A stretch of DNA of 64,000 nucleotides from Datnioides undecimradiatus (Eukaryota; Chordata; Actinopteri; Lobotiformes; Datnioididae), in assembly GCA_008933995.1 (NCBI GenBank), contig WARS01000012.1, positions 4,526,001 through 4,590,000 on the forward strand. The letters are read 5' to 3'. Numbering within the stretch: position 1 is the first letter of the stretch; every line of letters begins with the position of its first letter. Shown in pieces: positions 2,750 through 63,368 of the stretch. The notes beneath the pieces are model-generated. The model worked only from the letters and a program-made list of their open reading frames with translations. It made no database searches and was not told the origin of the DNA. The translations under genes and the position numbers were made by a program.

Positions 2750-3545
2750 ATTTTTGAAAGATTCTACGGGAAACGAGTGCTCGGAGACGCTCCTTCACAG
2801 GTGTTGTCTCATCGCACTTATACCGCGGGAGCACGGGAGCACGGGAGCTCAGAATTGCGCGGAGCATGTAGCCGAAACTACACCAGACTGTGGAGGTGAA
2901 GTTTGCGTCTGTGTTGGACCTGAGCTGACTTCTTCTTCAGGAGGAACGTTTACAACATTTAGAGCGGCTCTTTGACACTCAACTTGTCTGGAGCTAAATG
3001 ACAAGTAGGCAGCGGCACAGAGCCACTCAGTGATACTAGGGGCACGATGGAGAGCAAAGGATTACTCCGCTGTAAGATTGTGGTGGTCGGCGATGCGCAA
3101 TGTGGCAAAACGGCTCTCCTTCATGTTTTTGCCAAAGACTCGTACCCAGAGGTAAGAGACAGTGTTTCACACACATGAGTGATGACTGCAGCACAGGTAC
3201 GTAAAGTAGAACCACGGGGCGCGACAAAGTCTCCATCCAGCCTGACATTTCCAGAAACTTTAAAGCCTTCTTACATCATCGATATGATAGCAACAGATCA
3301 TATTTATTTAACTGAATGGGGTTTCTTATTGACATCCTGAAAATTGGTGATTTCTTTTGACAGTTACGTCTTTATCATCCAGTTTGGCTCGATCTGTTTT
3401 GGCTCATTTTAATGTAAAATCTGGATTAAGTAAAGATCCTTTCAGTCTTCAGACTTGTACGCATTCAGTGCCCAACTGCCGCAGAAATCTGGGCTCTGTG
3501 CGCTTTTGCGCATCGCGCGCATCAGCGGCTGTTACCTGCGGTCTG
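2750..3545 (+). promoter_or_regulatory. RND2: CpG-rich promoter and 5' region of RND2 (approximate)
   Basis: CpG dinucleotides are clearly denser here than in the surrounding AT-rich DNA. They cluster at 2760-2930, in exon 1 (3047-3151) and again at 3470-3545 in intron 1. The stretch covers the 5' leader, the start codon and the first intron start, as expected of a vertebrate CpG-associated promoter. No TATA box is evident and the transcription start cannot be fixed. An 82-codon open frame (2727-2975) lies wholly upstream of the start and would be an upstream ORF if transcription begins before 2727. Confidence 0.45.
3047..3151 (+). CDS. RND2: RND2 coding exon 1 (P-loop)
   Basis: The exon runs from the start codon to the donor GAG|GTAAGA and codes for 35 residues, including the nucleotide-binding loop GDAQCGKT followed by [13 protein letters not shown]. 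The start is the first ATG in frame with the P-loop. It gives an N-terminus of the length typical for RND2, about eight residues before CKIVVVG. It ends in phase 0. Confidence 0.94.
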
Positions 3546-27500: not shown

Positions 27501-29170
27501 ATATTTCTCATAGAGGAGGAATGGTATCACCAACATCCTGCTGTGCGACACTCCCTCAATACAGAACGTCTCTAACACTGATGGCTGAACACCTACGCTG
27601 TCACACTGAGTCGATGTTTCGTTGCCAAAGAAGTTGATGAATCCGATTGATGACACACTCCAAAAAGAAAGAATGAAATAAAGTGACAGGAGATAGTTGG
27701 AACGCGTCAGAGCAGAAGTGTTATTTATAGCAACTTAAGAAGGATTGATTAAAGCAATACAAAATCTAGGTTATGACAAGATACAGCCAAGCAGTGTCAG
27801 TGCTGTAGGAGAACAGGTAAGCACCATGTACATTTAAGTTCAACCAGTCTGGATTTAAGATGGTGCCAGCCACTACTGGGAATAAGCCGAGCTCTTACGC
27901 TCAAGTTTTACAGTTGCACAGATAGGTCTTGAATATTTCATGGTTCTGTGGAGGATCTTAGCTTTCGGTACGCCCCAGCTAGCTATTATGCCTCTGATGG
28001 CATGGGCTTTTTATTAAGTGGGTAGACTTTACAGTACAGGACCAAGGAAAGGATAGGGTAGGGATAATATGACAGCATGTAACAAATGGTGATAATAATA
28101 AACTTCTAGAGAACATTTTAAGAGAGTTGTCCACTGTTTGTACTCTATGGCTACCACTATGTGATGTTGTGTAAATGCTTCACTTTGGCTTTTTATTCCA
28201 GCAGTTCAACACTACACAGAAGAATACAAAATGCATCATTTCCACCACATGACCTCTCTGTCTCTCTCACACAATTTCTGTGCCACAGCTATAAGTACAC
28301 ACTCTCAGCAGCTCTCTACATGAGTCACCTGCTTTTGGACCACAAACAAACACAAACTGAAGCATAAAAAAGCATGAATTTTACAGCCACACTAATTTTT
28401 ATAGTAACAACTGAAAACATAAACAGAATCCGGGAGTGCAGTTTCCCTCTCTGTGGAGCATTTTAGTATCATTAAGCGAATAGTTTTGGTTTTACAACCC
28501 ACAAATTTACTGTTGTGGTCCATCTCAGTATTCTCATCAGACCTTTTCCAGCGGCAGCAGGCAGCTACACGCTACCTGCCCTAAGGCAACTGGCACACAG
28601 ACAAAAGTTAGCAACTAGCTGGCAAACATAAAAGAGCATTTAGAAACTAAAGAGACAGATATTTCCCCAAAGAAATGGTGGAGACCATAAATAGAGCTAA
28701 AAAGGCGAGAAAATATTCGACTTCAACTCATCATGTGTCCAGAAACACAGCTCTAAATGAAATGTTTACTGCCTATAAATGGTCATAATTTGTCATTGTT
28801 TACAGCTTGATCCACTGCTTCCATGCCACCAGAAGAAATGTTTCATTCAGATTTAAGTCATCACTGTTGGTTTTTGCTCTTTACAGATCCATATTCTCTG
28901 TTTTACTGTTTTCAGGGCACTAATTTGGCGAGGCAGATCGGTGCTGTTGCCTACGCAGAGTGCACCTCAAAATATTCGGAGAACAGCGTTCGCGACGTTT
29001 TCCACGTCACCACCCTGTCGTCTGTGTCTCGAATCCATCGTCCTCAGCTCAAACGTACTGGGTCACGACGCGGCCTCAAGAGGGTCTCCCAGCAACCGCC
29101 CCGGACTGAGATTCATGAGCACCCACCCGCCATTAGAAAGGACCGGGCCAAAAGCTGTGTGCTCATGTAA
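3047..29170 (+). CDS. RND2: RND2, atypical constitutively GTP-bound Rho GTPase (gene span, 5 coding exons)
   Basis: Joined exons are 3047-3151, 4277-4364, 21201-21310, 25939-26073 and 28916-29170. They total 693 nt, coding for 230 residues (human RND2 has 227). The P-loop GDAQCGKT (residues 15-22) has Ala17 where Rho GTPases have the Gly12-equivalent. Switch II reads DTSGS (62-66), with Ser66 replacing the catalytic Gln. The base-recognition motif is GCKLD instead of GNKxD. All three changes are hallmarks of Rnd proteins, which bind GTP but do not hydrolyse it. The C-terminus is CVLM, a farnesylation-type CaaX box. The sequence matches RND2 better than RND1 or RND3 ([20 protein letters not shown] in exon 4; no long N-terminal extension as in RND3). 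Known role of the family: it antagonises RhoA signalling and controls neuronal migration and neurite form at endosomes and membranes. All introns are GT-AG. Its tail faces BRCA1. Confidence 0.96.
3152..4276 (+). other. RND2: RND2 intron 1
   Basis: GT-AG intron of 1125 bp. Its first 400 bp are CpG-rich, and a CA microsatellite lies at 4080-4104. No other gene is visible. Confidence 0.85.
4080..4104. repeat. (CA)n microsatellite
   Basis: An uninterrupted run of about 12 CA units in RND2 intron 1, roughly 170 bp upstream of exon 2. Confidence 0.9.
4277..4364 (+). CDS. RND2: RND2 coding exon 2 (switch I / effector loop)
   Basis: The acceptor TTTCAG precedes AAT TAT GTC and the donor is TCAG|GTAAGA. 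The 88 nt code for residues 36-64, from [10 protein letters not shown] through the effector loop to the start of switch II (WDTS). It ends in phase 1 and the next exon completes the Gly codon. A longer overlapping open frame (4281-4682) is out of frame and runs into the intron. Confidence 0.95.
5407..5450. repeat. CA-rich microsatellite
   Basis: CA dinucleotide run with a few interruptions, in RND2 intron 2. Confidence 0.85.
11222..11243. repeat. (ATCC)n microsatellite
   Basis: About five ATCC units in RND2 intron 2. Confidence 0.8.
14505..14523. repeat. (TG)n microsatellite
   Basis: Short TG run, followed within 15 bp by a CA-rich run that could pair with it as a hairpin. RND2 intron 2. 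Confidence 0.8.
17184..17217. repeat. TG-rich microsatellite with TA interruptions
   Basis: TGTGTGTA-type units in RND2 intron 2. Confidence 0.8.
17581..17660 (+). repeat. Dispersed repeat family A, fragment
   Basis: The segment around ACTTAGCTTAGTTTAACAC and the later ACCAGTACATCTAAAGCT aligns by eye to the longer copies at about 41340-41545 and 49610-49815. They share the order: TTAGCTTAGC, AAGACTG or a variant, a gap, then CTACCAGCACCTC-like. Degenerate. Confidence 0.45.
17790..17960 (+). repeat. Dispersed repeat family B, copy 1
   Basis: Contains CTTTAGCTGCTAAGGTCTCC, then a segment reading roughly GTTCGCCAGCTAGTTACTAA. The same order recurs at 21615-21750 on this strand and inverted at 28555-28705. 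The pattern resembles an interspersed repeat I recall as common in teleosts; I cannot give it a database name. Confidence 0.5.
21201..21310 (+). CDS. RND2: RND2 coding exon 3 (switch II and following strand)
   Basis: The acceptor CCCCTGCAG and donor AAG|GTCAGT define 110 nt coding for the end of the split Gly65 codon and then [19 protein letters not shown] through SVLKK. It is nearly identical to mammalian RND2 in this region. Ser66 replaces the catalytic Gln of active GTPases. It ends in phase 0. Confidence 0.95.
21615..21750 (+). repeat. Dispersed repeat family B, copy 2
   Basis: Contains GCGCTTTAGCTGCATAAGAC, then GTTCACCAGCCAGTTGCCAA and AGGTAGTGCACAGTGGA, matching the order of the copy at 17790-17960 with substitutions. 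Confidence 0.5.
23925..24122 (+). repeat. Dispersed repeat family C, distal part
   Basis: Degenerate segment with AATGTCATGGTAATC, GAGTTGTTGTGATATTTCAC, TCTGAACCAAAATAATGGAC and GCTGCTAGCATGGCTAAAAA in order. This order resembles a widespread teleost interspersed repeat known to me only as a recurring sequence, not by name. Confidence 0.5.
25700..25890 (+). mobile_element. Decayed 3' end of a Tc1/mariner-type DNA transposon
   Basis: Reading the + strand gives a conceptual fragment with [15 protein letters not shown] and YQILVKSL. This resembles the C-terminal tail of Tc1-like transposases found in many fish repeats ([12 protein letters not shown]...LVESLP). It is followed about 80 bp later by ATACTTTTGGCCAGACAGTG, close to the terminal inverted repeat end of such elements. 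No catalytic core and no opposite terminal repeat are visible nearby, so this is a truncated, inactive relic. It ends only about 50 bp before the exon 4 acceptor. Confidence 0.6.
25939..26073 (+). CDS. RND2: RND2 coding exon 4 (base-recognition motif)
   Basis: The acceptor GATCCACAG and donor CAG|GTGAGG define 135 nt coding for residues 102-146, from WQGETQEF to VTHEQ. The guanine-recognition motif is GCKLD (119-123), with the Cys that is typical of Rnd proteins in place of Asn. It starts and ends in phase 0. Confidence 0.95.
26074..28915 (+). other. RND2: RND2 intron 4
   Basis: GT-AG intron of 2842 bp with no recognisable gene. It holds an inverted family B repeat at 28555-28705, about 210 bp upstream of exon 5. 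Confidence 0.8.
28555..28705 (-). repeat. Dispersed repeat family B, copy 3 (inverted)
   Basis: The reverse complement reads CTCTTTAGTTTCTAAATGCTC and then GCCAGCTAGTTGCTAAC, and ends in an AGGTAGCGTGTAGC-type segment. It matches the two forward copies at 17790 and 21615. Confidence 0.5.
28916..29170 (+). CDS. RND2: RND2 coding exon 5 (C-terminal region, CaaX box)
   Basis: The acceptor TTTTCAG precedes GGC ACT AAT. The exon codes for residues 147-230: [33 protein letters not shown], then the Rnd-type basic, serine-rich tail ([12 protein letters not shown]) and [11 protein letters not shown] before the TAA stop. CVLM predicts farnesylation. The tail is a little longer than the human one. Confidence 0.95.
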
Positions 29171-30665: not shown

Positions 30666-31665
30666 CACTGATGTCTTTTCCAAATTAAAGGCAACCTATC
30701 CAATTGCTGTTGGGAAATTTTAGTGTGGATCAAAGTGGATCAAACAACCAGCCAACAGAGTGAAGGATAAAACAGCTTTGTGATTCTTTAGTGTGGCTCA
30801 TAAAATAAAGATTAGAAAAAAAATGCTAATAAATGCAAGTTACGTTTGCAACAGAAGTTATGAATTTCAATTTCAAATCCTAGCTCCTCACTGCTCAATG
30901 TGAATGCCAAGAAATGCCTTAACCTTTAACTATTTCTATTATTTTACACTATTAAATCCCTCATCTCTCTCCTCAGTTATAAAAATGACTGCTTATCATC
31001 TCTTATACTCCTGAGATTGTCATGGCAACTCATTGCCACATCAAGCAGTTTAGAAATGTTCGAGTAATAATCAGTTTATGTCTCAATATGTCTATTCAGT
31101 CACCATCCATCACTGAATGGGATAACACAATGGTGAGTTAATGAATTGGCCACTCACTGATAAAAGCATATGAAAACATGAATATTTGTTGTCATTGGCG
31201 ACATCCCAGAAAAAAAATATTATGCAAAATCCTACCCCTGCAGCTTCACACTGACAGCAATAAACTTTTACCATAAAGCCACAACAGGAAATGGAACGTG
31301 TCACTGACTGCTTCAATAAAAATGCTTCTACAAAACAACACAACAGTCATTTTTTGCATTTTTTTAGATGGCAAAATCATTTTGAAATATTGTAAAGTAA
31401 TTTCAGTAATTTCAGAAGTCTCATTTTCAAGCTGTACTTTTCACCTCTGTCCTCTGTATGGAATACAATGCAATGCTGTAGCTAGCAGCGTATTGCATAT
31501 GAGTCATCTGTCCTGACCTATTCTCTTTCACAGTTGAAAGGATCATCGTTTAATTTGTGTCTTCGTGTCTTTAAAGCAGATGAAACTGCTAGCATTTGTT
31601 AGTACTGGCATCAAAAGGAATATTCATCGTTCCATTATCATCATCATATTTGAAACATCTTCGTC

Positions 31666-31725
31666 ATACACACACACACACACATATATATATAATATAT
31701 ATATAATATTTAAATATAAATATTT
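31666..31725. repeat. (CA)n then AT-rich microsatellite at left edge of the duplicated block
   Basis: A CA run passes into TATATATAATATATATATAA. The second copy of the 3 kb block starts inside this same array, right after the N at 34705. Confidence 0.85.
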
Positions 31726-34704
31726 AAAAGAAGTTGTTGTGGACCGTATTCATGAGCTTTGTAGTCTGACCTTTAACTGTGACTTTTGTTCCATTTGTTT
31801 CCCACCACCATGGATAAGGCCCTGCAGCAACTTGCTGCCTGCCTCTGTGAGCAACGGCAAAGTGACATTTCACAGCATCGCTGCCATGTTGCCATGCAGG
31901 GAGCGCGAGGTCGCACCACATGCCCGAGGTGAGAGTGAGGCAGGCCTCTAGTCAGGGGAGAGAGGACGTCCACACAGACGGAGCAGCAACAGTCCTGCAA
32001 ACCTATAGTATATGACAACATCTGAATAGTAATTTAATCACAAGTGCTAGTGGTGGTTAATAATAGCTAGTCTGACTCGTGGTTAACGATCCTCAGCAGT
32101 GTGAGGTCATTTTGAATATAGTGCATGAAAGAGTAGTTTATTATCCACATACAAAGTCTTGTTCTCTATTATCATCATCATCAAAAGAACAAGCCTCCTG
32201 GCAAGCTGTGCTGACATAATAGGACCTAATTAGACTTGAATTCAAATTTAAAACTCTTCATACTCTGACATGTTACTTCTGCATACCAGTTGCAGCTCTG
32301 TGAACGACCAGTGAGATCAAGTTAGGGGAGAAACATGCAGACGAGTGCAACCTCAGCCTTAGGCACTGGGTCAGCCTCTGCTTTGGTGGAAGAAATGTTT
32401 GTTGATGCGACAGAAAATGTGAAAGACGTCACTTTGTGGCCTCTTTGGCCTCCGGCTGAAGTGAGCAAACATATTTGGCAAACACTCATCCCTCTTGTCC
32501 TTGCAACCCCACCTGGCTCGATGGCATTCCGCTCGACAGTTAAGTAATACTGCGGAGCAACTGCAGTGCACGCTGTGGCTAAAGCTTTCGAGTGTATTAA
32601 TGGCAACAATTTTTCAGCAGATGTCAGATGCTTCCCATTTTGTCGAGGGGATTTGTGTGAGAAAAGCAGCCGAAATAAGTAGGTAGGTGGAAAAATGAAC
32701 TTCAAATGGGCCAGAAGGCATAAGATGTAAGACCACAGAGAGAAAAAGACCATTAGACTCCCACATGGAAAATGTTCTAATATCTTTTCCATTTTTATTT
32801 CATCTCCAACGACCACAGAAAGACCACTGGATTTACATTTAATCTTTATGTGAACAGGTAATGTATTGTCATATTGGTGTTACAACCAGAGTACAGCCTA
32901 AATGTATTCAACGTTACAGTGGTCAGTTTAAATAAAATGGAAGAAGCTATAGTGTTTTTCACATTTAGCTGACACTCCTAGCCAGAGGCACTTAGCAATA
33001 AGTAGAATATGATGGAGTTCTTGGCATAAAAGCAACCATTGGTGAGTCCTCGGTGAAGCGGAGATGCAAAATGGATTCAATAGAAAAGCAAACAGCGGAG
33101 GAAGATAAGAGAGAGAGCAAGGTACAACTCTAAAGAAGCTGATTTGATTTTTAAGTTTTAAAGTCAAAAGATTTTTAAGTTTTCAAGTCGAAAGAAGGAG
33201 ATGGATGAGCGACATCATGTCTAAAGTGAGAAAATGTGTTTTTATCTGACAGAAGGGTGAAGATGCTGTTGTGAAGATAAACCACTGTAAGCAGCCCACA
33301 ATGGCAGAGTAATGAGCAGCGGCTGGCGCATGACCTGGGGATACTGGGTAGAAGTTTTTAGCTTCAGTTTGGCTTTTTGACAATAAGGTTGGTCAGTCCA
33401 CCACTTTGGTCCACAAAAAATACATGAAAGGAAATAATTACATTTTGTTCATATGTTCGGGGTTCCCAGAGGATGAATCTCAATATGACTTTTGAAGTTT
33501 AATTTTAATTTGTCTGAAACTTTAGTTTATAACCAAAAACCTCCAGAAAGAATGACATTCCCATCAGTCTCAGCTATACTTGGTTGAAATATTACACTAA
33601 AAACCAGCGATGCTGCTGAAGGGAAAGCCAGTGGATCCTTAGAGTCAGTGTGCTTCATCTTTGCAAAACAAAAAAAAAAAGCCTGCATGGCCGACATTTG
33701 TGGAGCCTAAAAAAATCTGCTGTCTTCAGGTGAGACTTAGTTTGAGGCAGCATGCTGACATTTTACTGAAAATATCAGCTAGGCAAGGAGAGATACATGC
33801 CTCAGTCTGAATGAACAGGGGGCGAAAAATAAAAGGTTTGGTTGAGTCTCAACGGGCAACACTAATGGGTTGTGTGATTTGCTGTAGTTGTGCTCATAAA
33901 TCGAAGTAATCAAAAAAACAAGAACCTGAATATGAGACCTAAAAGGTATCTCACTGGAGACAAGGCAAAAACAGAATAAACAGAAGGGAAGCCAGTGGTT
34001 AATATACAATATATCAGAGACGGAGAGATCAGATTAAAGTATTTAAGAACTGAAGATTATTTTCATAGAGATGTCACACCAACAAAAACACCTAAACAAG
34101 CTGGTGTCCCAGGTGTCCCATGAAAGTTATATAACAGTCTGTATACATGCAGCTAATCCTCTGTAACTGTGCGCAAAATTTGCAGCATCATCTTTACAGC
34201 AAAGCCACTGGAATGCACCTAAATAATTTATACTTATGTTTGTCTGTAGTCTGGACATAGACTAGGACTTAATAAGCTTTCTCTACTTCTGTAGGTCAGC
34301 TTCATCGGGACTGAAACAGGTGGGCAGGACGAAGCCAGTGTCCTCAGTCTTGTTCCTCAGGATTCAAAGCCCTGCTGCTTTTCAATCTAACCACCTAATT
34401 GCAGAGCATTTACCTGGAATGTGAAATACGTTGTTTCAGAGCAGCAACAATCACCTCAAACAAACAACTTTCAGGGTTCAAATTCAGTCTCTGACCTGCA
34501 TTATAAGTCCCTTGTGAGATGAGTCAGCCACATGTAAATTATTGTGAAGTCACATGTGGTCATGTGAAAAGTTCACATGTAATTATGGTAATTCTGACAT
34601 CTAAAATTCATTATGGCTTTTCAGCAAAGGAAGGAAGTTTGTTCATGCACTTTTTTGTGTGAGACAGGAATCTTTCTAGATGTATTGCTTTTCTTGCATT
34701 ATTA
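31679..34704. repeat. 3026-bp direct repeat, copy 1
   Basis: Matches 34706-37731 at a constant offset of 3027 bp. Every open frame in one copy recurs with the same translation in the other. Line-by-line checks at several places, including an 11-A homopolymer, found no difference. Copy 1 ends in CATTATTA immediately before a single N. The block has no recognisable gene; the largest open frame (32322-32816, - strand, 164 codons) has no known motif. Most likely an assembly overlap counted twice. Confidence 0.95.
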
Positions 34705-34705
34705 N
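34705..34705. other. Single ambiguous base (N) at the repeat junction
   Basis: The only non-ACGT base noticed in the window. It sits exactly between the two identical 3 kb copies, so it is probably a contig-join placeholder. Confidence 0.9.
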
Positions 34706-37700
34706 CACACATATATATATAATATATATATAATATTTAAATATAAATATTTAAAAGAAGTTGTTGTGGACCGTATTCATGAGCTTTGTAGTCTGACCTT
34801 TAACTGTGACTTTTGTTCCATTTGTTTCCCACCACCATGGATAAGGCCCTGCAGCAACTTGCTGCCTGCCTCTGTGAGCAACGGCAAAGTGACATTTCAC
34901 AGCATCGCTGCCATGTTGCCATGCAGGGAGCGCGAGGTCGCACCACATGCCCGAGGTGAGAGTGAGGCAGGCCTCTAGTCAGGGGAGAGAGGACGTCCAC
35001 ACAGACGGAGCAGCAACAGTCCTGCAAACCTATAGTATATGACAACATCTGAATAGTAATTTAATCACAAGTGCTAGTGGTGGTTAATAATAGCTAGTCT
35101 GACTCGTGGTTAACGATCCTCAGCAGTGTGAGGTCATTTTGAATATAGTGCATGAAAGAGTAGTTTATTATCCACATACAAAGTCTTGTTCTCTATTATC
35201 ATCATCATCAAAAGAACAAGCCTCCTGGCAAGCTGTGCTGACATAATAGGACCTAATTAGACTTGAATTCAAATTTAAAACTCTTCATACTCTGACATGT
35301 TACTTCTGCATACCAGTTGCAGCTCTGTGAACGACCAGTGAGATCAAGTTAGGGGAGAAACATGCAGACGAGTGCAACCTCAGCCTTAGGCACTGGGTCA
35401 GCCTCTGCTTTGGTGGAAGAAATGTTTGTTGATGCGACAGAAAATGTGAAAGACGTCACTTTGTGGCCTCTTTGGCCTCCGGCTGAAGTGAGCAAACATA
35501 TTTGGCAAACACTCATCCCTCTTGTCCTTGCAACCCCACCTGGCTCGATGGCATTCCGCTCGACAGTTAAGTAATACTGCGGAGCAACTGCAGTGCACGC
35601 TGTGGCTAAAGCTTTCGAGTGTATTAATGGCAACAATTTTTCAGCAGATGTCAGATGCTTCCCATTTTGTCGAGGGGATTTGTGTGAGAAAAGCAGCCGA
35701 AATAAGTAGGTAGGTGGAAAAATGAACTTCAAATGGGCCAGAAGGCATAAGATGTAAGACCACAGAGAGAAAAAGACCATTAGACTCCCACATGGAAAAT
35801 GTTCTAATATCTTTTCCATTTTTATTTCATCTCCAACGACCACAGAAAGACCACTGGATTTACATTTAATCTTTATGTGAACAGGTAATGTATTGTCATA
35901 TTGGTGTTACAACCAGAGTACAGCCTAAATGTATTCAACGTTACAGTGGTCAGTTTAAATAAAATGGAAGAAGCTATAGTGTTTTTCACATTTAGCTGAC
36001 ACTCCTAGCCAGAGGCACTTAGCAATAAGTAGAATATGATGGAGTTCTTGGCATAAAAGCAACCATTGGTGAGTCCTCGGTGAAGCGGAGATGCAAAATG
36101 GATTCAATAGAAAAGCAAACAGCGGAGGAAGATAAGAGAGAGAGCAAGGTACAACTCTAAAGAAGCTGATTTGATTTTTAAGTTTTAAAGTCAAAAGATT
36201 TTTAAGTTTTCAAGTCGAAAGAAGGAGATGGATGAGCGACATCATGTCTAAAGTGAGAAAATGTGTTTTTATCTGACAGAAGGGTGAAGATGCTGTTGTG
36301 AAGATAAACCACTGTAAGCAGCCCACAATGGCAGAGTAATGAGCAGCGGCTGGCGCATGACCTGGGGATACTGGGTAGAAGTTTTTAGCTTCAGTTTGGC
36401 TTTTTGACAATAAGGTTGGTCAGTCCACCACTTTGGTCCACAAAAAATACATGAAAGGAAATAATTACATTTTGTTCATATGTTCGGGGTTCCCAGAGGA
36501 TGAATCTCAATATGACTTTTGAAGTTTAATTTTAATTTGTCTGAAACTTTAGTTTATAACCAAAAACCTCCAGAAAGAATGACATTCCCATCAGTCTCAG
36601 CTATACTTGGTTGAAATATTACACTAAAAACCAGCGATGCTGCTGAAGGGAAAGCCAGTGGATCCTTAGAGTCAGTGTGCTTCATCTTTGCAAAACAAAA
36701 AAAAAAAGCCTGCATGGCCGACATTTGTGGAGCCTAAAAAAATCTGCTGTCTTCAGGTGAGACTTAGTTTGAGGCAGCATGCTGACATTTTACTGAAAAT
36801 ATCAGCTAGGCAAGGAGAGATACATGCCTCAGTCTGAATGAACAGGGGGCGAAAAATAAAAGGTTTGGTTGAGTCTCAACGGGCAACACTAATGGGTTGT
36901 GTGATTTGCTGTAGTTGTGCTCATAAATCGAAGTAATCAAAAAAACAAGAACCTGAATATGAGACCTAAAAGGTATCTCACTGGAGACAAGGCAAAAACA
37001 GAATAAACAGAAGGGAAGCCAGTGGTTAATATACAATATATCAGAGACGGAGAGATCAGATTAAAGTATTTAAGAACTGAAGATTATTTTCATAGAGATG
37101 TCACACCAACAAAAACACCTAAACAAGCTGGTGTCCCAGGTGTCCCATGAAAGTTATATAACAGTCTGTATACATGCAGCTAATCCTCTGTAACTGTGCG
37201 CAAAATTTGCAGCATCATCTTTACAGCAAAGCCACTGGAATGCACCTAAATAATTTATACTTATGTTTGTCTGTAGTCTGGACATAGACTAGGACTTAAT
37301 AAGCTTTCTCTACTTCTGTAGGTCAGCTTCATCGGGACTGAAACAGGTGGGCAGGACGAAGCCAGTGTCCTCAGTCTTGTTCCTCAGGATTCAAAGCCCT
37401 GCTGCTTTTCAATCTAACCACCTAATTGCAGAGCATTTACCTGGAATGTGAAATACGTTGTTTCAGAGCAGCAACAATCACCTCAAACAAACAACTTTCA
37501 GGGTTCAAATTCAGTCTCTGACCTGCATTATAAGTCCCTTGTGAGATGAGTCAGCCACATGTAAATTATTGTGAAGTCACATGTGGTCATGTGAAAAGTT
37601 CACATGTAATTATGGTAATTCTGACATCTAAAATTCATTATGGCTTTTCAGCAAAGGAAGGAAGTTTGTTCATGCACTTTTTTGTGTGAGACAGGAATCT

Positions 37701-37731
37701 TTCTAGATGTATTGCTTTTCTTGCATTATTA
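34706..37731. repeat. 3026-bp direct repeat, copy 2
   Basis: Counterpart of 31679-34704. It begins inside the CA/AT microsatellite and at its right end continues into unique sequence (ATTATTATGTGAACC), where copy 1 stops at the N. Confidence 0.95.
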
Positions 37732-39138
37732 TTATGTGAACCATTATCTTAATACAAACACACTCAGCAGGGGGTCCATTTTTCATTTTAATTCTGCCAT
37801 AAAGTAGCACTGATCAGTGACCACCGAGGCTCAACCCTTCTGCATCTTTAATGCCCTTCCTGCTTGCACAGTGTCAGTAGCCATAAAACTACACCCTAAT
37901 GCTCTGAGGGTGGAAGATGGCTGACAGCGCTGCTCTATTATCACTTCAGTTTTACTCAAATCCCCACTTTAACATCACAAGGAAAGGGAATTAGGTGAAA
38001 TAAGCCTGGCAACAAGCATCAACCACCAAATACAAGCAACACAATAGCAATGTCAGGATAATGGTTGCCGTGTCAGTGGGAGAGAGTGAGTCATTAAAAA
38101 TGCAGGACCCATTTAAACAGTATGTAAAATTGAGCAGATTAAAAATATATGTGCCCTGTGTCCATGAGGGCTAAGGCTTCTCCTTCTGTTCTCTCTGCGC
38201 AACAATGAAGGCGGCAAATCTGTGGAGGCAAGACGAGGGAAAGCACGTACGCGAAACAAAATGCAAGTGCACACAGAAGCATGCACACGACATGGACACA
38301 CCGGCAAAATAAAAAAGGGTGATGTTTCAGAAATTGCATTTTTACAATGGTGGAACTCTTGCAAATTTAACAAGCAGCAAACAGGGCTGGAATTGGAGAG
38401 CCAAGCTTGATAACAAAACCAGCTTGCTCCAACTGTGTAAATTCATTGCACCCCTTTGTACGAGGGAGAAAGTTTTAGACATAGCTTTGACTTGCTAAAC
38501 TGATTTGCTTTCTAGATAGTTTCAATGTTCATGACCCGGCTTTAAGGACTTTGTTGAAGAGACACTTGTAGACAGTGTTTGGGTTGCAGCCAAAGGGTGT
38601 GACCAAAATACTGTTAAAATACTTCAGGAGGCTTCAGGCCAGCAACTAATGAGGATCACAGCAGCAAAGTGTGAGAGCAGCCAGGGTCATCATGGACAAG
38701 TGCACTCATTATTCACAGCAACTTGACTACAGAGAGCTGACGTGGACGCGTATGTAATGAGCACACAAAGATAATTGCAATATGTGAAATAGCCGAGTTA
38801 TAGTGATTAACTGGATCTGAACTCAAGCTTGACTCAGTCAATTATTTTTTCAGGGACTTGATTTGGTCAGAAACTAGTGAAAAATGATGATCAGAGTCCA
38901 AACTGATGTCTTTGCTTGTTTGCCAGAGTGTCTGAAAAATGGTCCAAAACTCAAAGATATTCAGTTTCTAGTCATTAAGGATAAAGAAACTCATTAAAAA
39001 TGGTGTGAAGAGTCTGCAGCCACGCAGTTTGCTCAGTCGTGCTGCATTAGGATACAGCATTGACTTAAATATCAGTGTAATGTAATCTTAATAACATGAT
39101 CACGTTTATCTGTAACGTTTACCTGTGCATTTTATTTC

Positions 39139-44294: not shown

Positions 44295-63368
<19,074 letters not shown>

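Follow-up and report, generated by a model that had tools for sequence, protein, structure and literature searches.

We find that the 3-kb repeat lying between RND2 and BRCA1 is very probably a false duplication, i.e. an ordinary assembly artefact, and that the real genome most likely carries the segment once. The stretch of DNA analysed (64,000 nt, referred to here as the window) is C465:4526001-4590000 of an assembly of 581,297,614 bases in 497 contigs, all of which was searched. On direct base comparison in this window, copy 1 (31679..34704, 3026 bp, read as the end of the left contig) and copy 2 (34706..37731, 3026 bp, read as the start of the right contig), to neither of which a strand applies, are equal at 3026 of 3026 bases with an offset of 3027, as the original prediction had claimed in describing two blocks that match at a constant 3027-bp offset with no difference seen where they were compared. 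From 0 differences in 3026 bases, the 95% upper bound on the divergence between the copies is 0.1%. The maximal exact run at this offset is also of 3026 bases, and the inner end of each copy abuts a single N at 34705, which sits exactly at the junction as predicted and is the sole non-ACGT letter in the window. The AT microsatellites and the homopolymer are equal in both copies. The run of 11 A (33670-33680 in copy 1) and the 185-aa open frames (32322-32879 in copy 1 and 35349-35906 in copy 2) had been described as the same in both copies, and they are indeed identical.

The layout of the two blocks is a dovetail: the left contig ends in the sequence with which the right contig begins, and each of the two ends breaks off within low-complexity sequence. 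At the left edge, a (CA)8 tract (31669..31684) is followed by an AT-rich microsatellite, given as an AT-rich array at 31684-31727 in the repeat listing. The right contig begins 3 CA units before the end of the (CA)8 tract, and copy 2 keeps just these 3 units together with the AT tract that follows. It had been proposed that copy 2 starts inside the CA/AT microsatellite with which copy 1 begins; the start within the microsatellite holds, whereas the exact match begins inside (CA)8 and not at its start. At the other edge copy 1 breaks off with ATTATTA (34698-34704) within an ATT run that copy 2 passes through, going on as ATTATTATTAT (37725..37735), in agreement with what had been noted for this run. 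These tracts, like the N, have no strand assigned.

Such an arrangement matches the class of mis-assembled DOCs ('duplicated overlapping contigs') named by Kelley and Salzberg 2010 (PMC2864568), as over 3026/3026 bases the left contig's suffix matches the right contig's prefix and both copies are on one scaffold (C465) with a gap between them, the N being read as the contig end. In the available text of that paper, the DOCs judged to be errors are given for chicken (5,698 of 5,947), chimpanzee (13,159 of 13,571), cow (1,094 of 1,366) and dog (8 of 22), and for the first three species the error share is 80-97%. It may be noted that the cases in the portions seen of PMC2864568 are mostly divergent haplotypes judged by mate pairs, whereas here the identity is 100% and the judgement is made on the sequence alone. 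Ko et al. 2022 (PMC9516828), in the accessible sections, count a gap that separates copies on the same scaffold among the primary characteristics of a false duplication. The homotype false duplication as it appears in those sections shares with our case the adjacent copies on one scaffold, the assembly gap and the lack of haplotype differences, but the class was set there by read depth and k-mers and here from the bases only.

The assembler would have closed one contig at 34704 and opened the next at the base that is now 34706, with one contig end broken in the CA/AT microsatellite and the other in the ATT run, and 3026 bp of one genomic stretch would be common to both contigs. The scaffolder, via linking data, would then have placed the contigs as neighbours, left the overlap unmerged and inserted one N. 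The identity of the copies, their layout, the place of the N and the number of copies in the assembly are direct observations; from them we infer a single locus behind both copies, a contig boundary at the N and the failure of the step proposed here. A single n as the mark of a contig overlap is used by SSAKE and SSPACE. The same mark is described for the LINKS scaffolder in the part seen of PMC4524009, where one n is written if contigs overlap and N-pads of estimated length are written elsewhere. The junction at 34705 resembles the LINKS mark of that text in having one n at a putative contig overlap. The single-n rule is not stated in the available portions of PMC5368935, PMC3158087, PMC4177539, PMC6733440 and PMC8110574. 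The software behind this assembly presumably follows the rule. An unmerged overlap is thus supported by the dovetail, the zero differences, the one-base gap at the junction, the lack of a third copy or twin contig, and the single-n rule as far as the seen text of PMC4524009 gives it. These points also bear out the earlier suggestion of overlapping contig ends left unmerged at a low-complexity edge, which we keep as an interpretation.

In 356,396 bases of the assembly, the window included, we found two N runs, of which one is a gap of 74 N and the other is the single N. No other ambiguity codes or isolated Ns are present in these bases, making the N at 34705 the only isolated one, which we read as the scaffolder's overlap mark by the convention in the available text of PMC4524009. 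A stray ambiguous base was considered as the source of the N and rejected, as no other IUPAC code or isolated N is seen in the 356,396 bases. The 74-N gap is at C465:4432540, within a region of 264 kb made up of the 200 kb to the left and the window, and no N occurs in the 50 kb directly to the right of the window. The 8-kb flanks of the 74-N gap share no match; therefore, not all gaps here carry an overlap. Taken together, the 74-N gap and the single N would be consistent with the scheme of a single n or an N-pad. In a direct-repeat screen of the same 264 contiguous kb (40-base seeds occurring at fewer than 20 places) the 3026-bp repeat is followed in length by a single further exact direct repeat, of 66 bp, and hence the 3026-bp match is not due to chance.

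When the 3026-bp sequence was used as a query, 17 matches were obtained across the assembly, of which two are full-length (both at this locus) and 15 are partial. The sequence to the left of copy 1 (2,079 bases) is matched in full at one place, with four partial matches at 68-85%, and the sequence to the right of copy 2 (2,001 bases) is likewise matched in full at one place, with a single partial match, of 46 bases. Since each flank has one full place in the assembly, the flanks are single-copy and no twin contig extends over the locus; also no third copy of the segment is found in the assembly. We further looked for a second exact pair on one contig (copies at most 20 kb apart with equal query range, score and E-value) and found none among the matches listed for kinases (at least 155 matches, with 120 of 1,722 candidates scored) and homeodomains (at least 150 matches, with 150 of 453 candidates scored), both listings being read by eye and covering a small part of the genome.

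A very different reading of the same layout is that the sequenced animal carries a true and very recent tandem duplication, or a copy-number variant, of about 3 kb, whose junction the assembler did not close. The order of left flank, segment, segment and right flank would be the same, and an N at the junction does not by itself decide between the two. Also the left flank and the segment have their last base (A) in common, which is no more than expected by chance. However, contiguous sequence through the junction is not present, the junction being the N. The 0 differences in 3026 bp also stand against a true duplication, which would need to be very young because of the 95% divergence bound of 0.1%, and a comparable exact repeat is absent from the 264 kb. 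Assemblers more often collapse exact true repeats than lay them out in full twice, and by this general assembly reasoning too a true duplication is disfavoured. A one-base gap is moreover the mark for overlapping contigs of a published scaffolder, going by the available text of PMC4524009. On this evidence we regard a true duplication as highly improbable.

The unmerged overlap could also have arisen from two haplotypes of this stretch being placed one after the other, i.e. as a heterotype false duplication. It would then be a sub-case of the overlap explanation, with its probability counted within that of the latter, and we consider it conceivable though rather unlikely. The assembly appears to retain both haplotypes in places. 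Contigs C473 and C474 have 0 differences in a sample of 5,000 bases; along 2.06 Mb their offset ranges from 1272 to 3716 bp, drifting up as well as down and without a single jump. These offsets are from 19 of 20 probes and one further pair, the probe at 1.0 Mb being dropped for a partial C474 match (90%) in a repeated stretch. Contigs C471 and C472 are 99.6% identical over about 4 kb (4 mismatches and 2 gap openings). Both pairs look like two haplotypes. The members of each of these pairs are also of nearly equal length. More pairs are hinted at by the kinase and homeodomain matches, where among the matches listed C15/C230 and C422/C423 are equal and C215/C218 and C205/C207 nearly equal. Between the two copies at our locus no heterozygous differences are present, with 0 in 3026 bp, and this counts against two haplotypes only weakly, the twin stretches sampled having 0 or few differences as well. 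A homozygous stretch is possible, given that one twin stretch showed 0 differences (5,000 bases) and the other 4 mismatches with 2 gap openings (about 4,000 bases). In the available text of PMC2864568, false duplications driven by haplotypes have a median identity of 98.1% with few above 99.5%, and perfect identity is therefore atypical of such a cause; it speaks for a single haplotype or for homozygosity over the stretch.

As regards the contents of the unit, a Pfam search with the 185-aa open frame gave no match at E 0.001, and an Rfam search over 31000-38500 gave none at gathering scores. A gene inside the copy was thus rejected, as neither database gave a match and two weak matches of the BRCT query inside the copies (E 2.8, with stops) are taken as chance. 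A transposable element as the cause was likewise rejected, since apart from the two full copies the matches are 15 partial places at 76-86% identity, so that the unit of 3 kb does not qualify as a dispersed repeat. On dividing these places by position, 14 of the 15 fall in 33499-33581 and one at 33396-33484, each of at most 89 bases. The approximately 80 bases at 33499-33581 (and 36526-36608), with 14 other places in the assembly, are probably a remnant of an old dispersed repeat. A 24-base unit in about 2 repeats with 92% matches is also seen at 33146-33195 (and 36173-36222).

The genes on either side were located by tblastn with human RND2 and a human BRCT segment as queries, together with sequence motifs. 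RND2 exon matches run on the + strand from 3068 to 29167, and the last coding exon (28913..29170, +, E 4e-23), with the stop codon at 29168-29170, forms the left border of the spacer. For BRCA1, the BRCT exon matches are on the - strand and span 53412 to 44304. The right border is the BRCA1 coding end in the second BRCT repeat (44295..44375, -, E 0.003), with the stop codon at 44295-44297, and four further exon matches upstream of it were obtained with the BRCT segment (E 2e-8, 3e-8, 3e-4 and 0.06). Judged by where it lies and by its strand, an 872-aa frame at 59598-62216, which has no Pfam match, is taken to be the large BRCA1 exon. The exon matches and stop codons agree with the RND2-BRCA1 context given in the original prediction, and all coding exons found for RND2 and BRCA1 are outside the copies. 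From stop to stop the two genes are 15,124 bp apart, and 3,027 bp of these (20%) are in question. These roughly 3,027 bp of spacer are probably spurious, in line with the earlier estimate of a spacer about 3.0 kb too long, and the real stop-to-stop stretch is most likely about 12.1 kb, not 15.1 kb. The finding is a point of data quality only, in that it would be wrong to treat the segment as a segmental duplication, or to add it to the spacer length, in this assembly, and it suggests a simple screen for single-N gaps with exact dovetail flanks.
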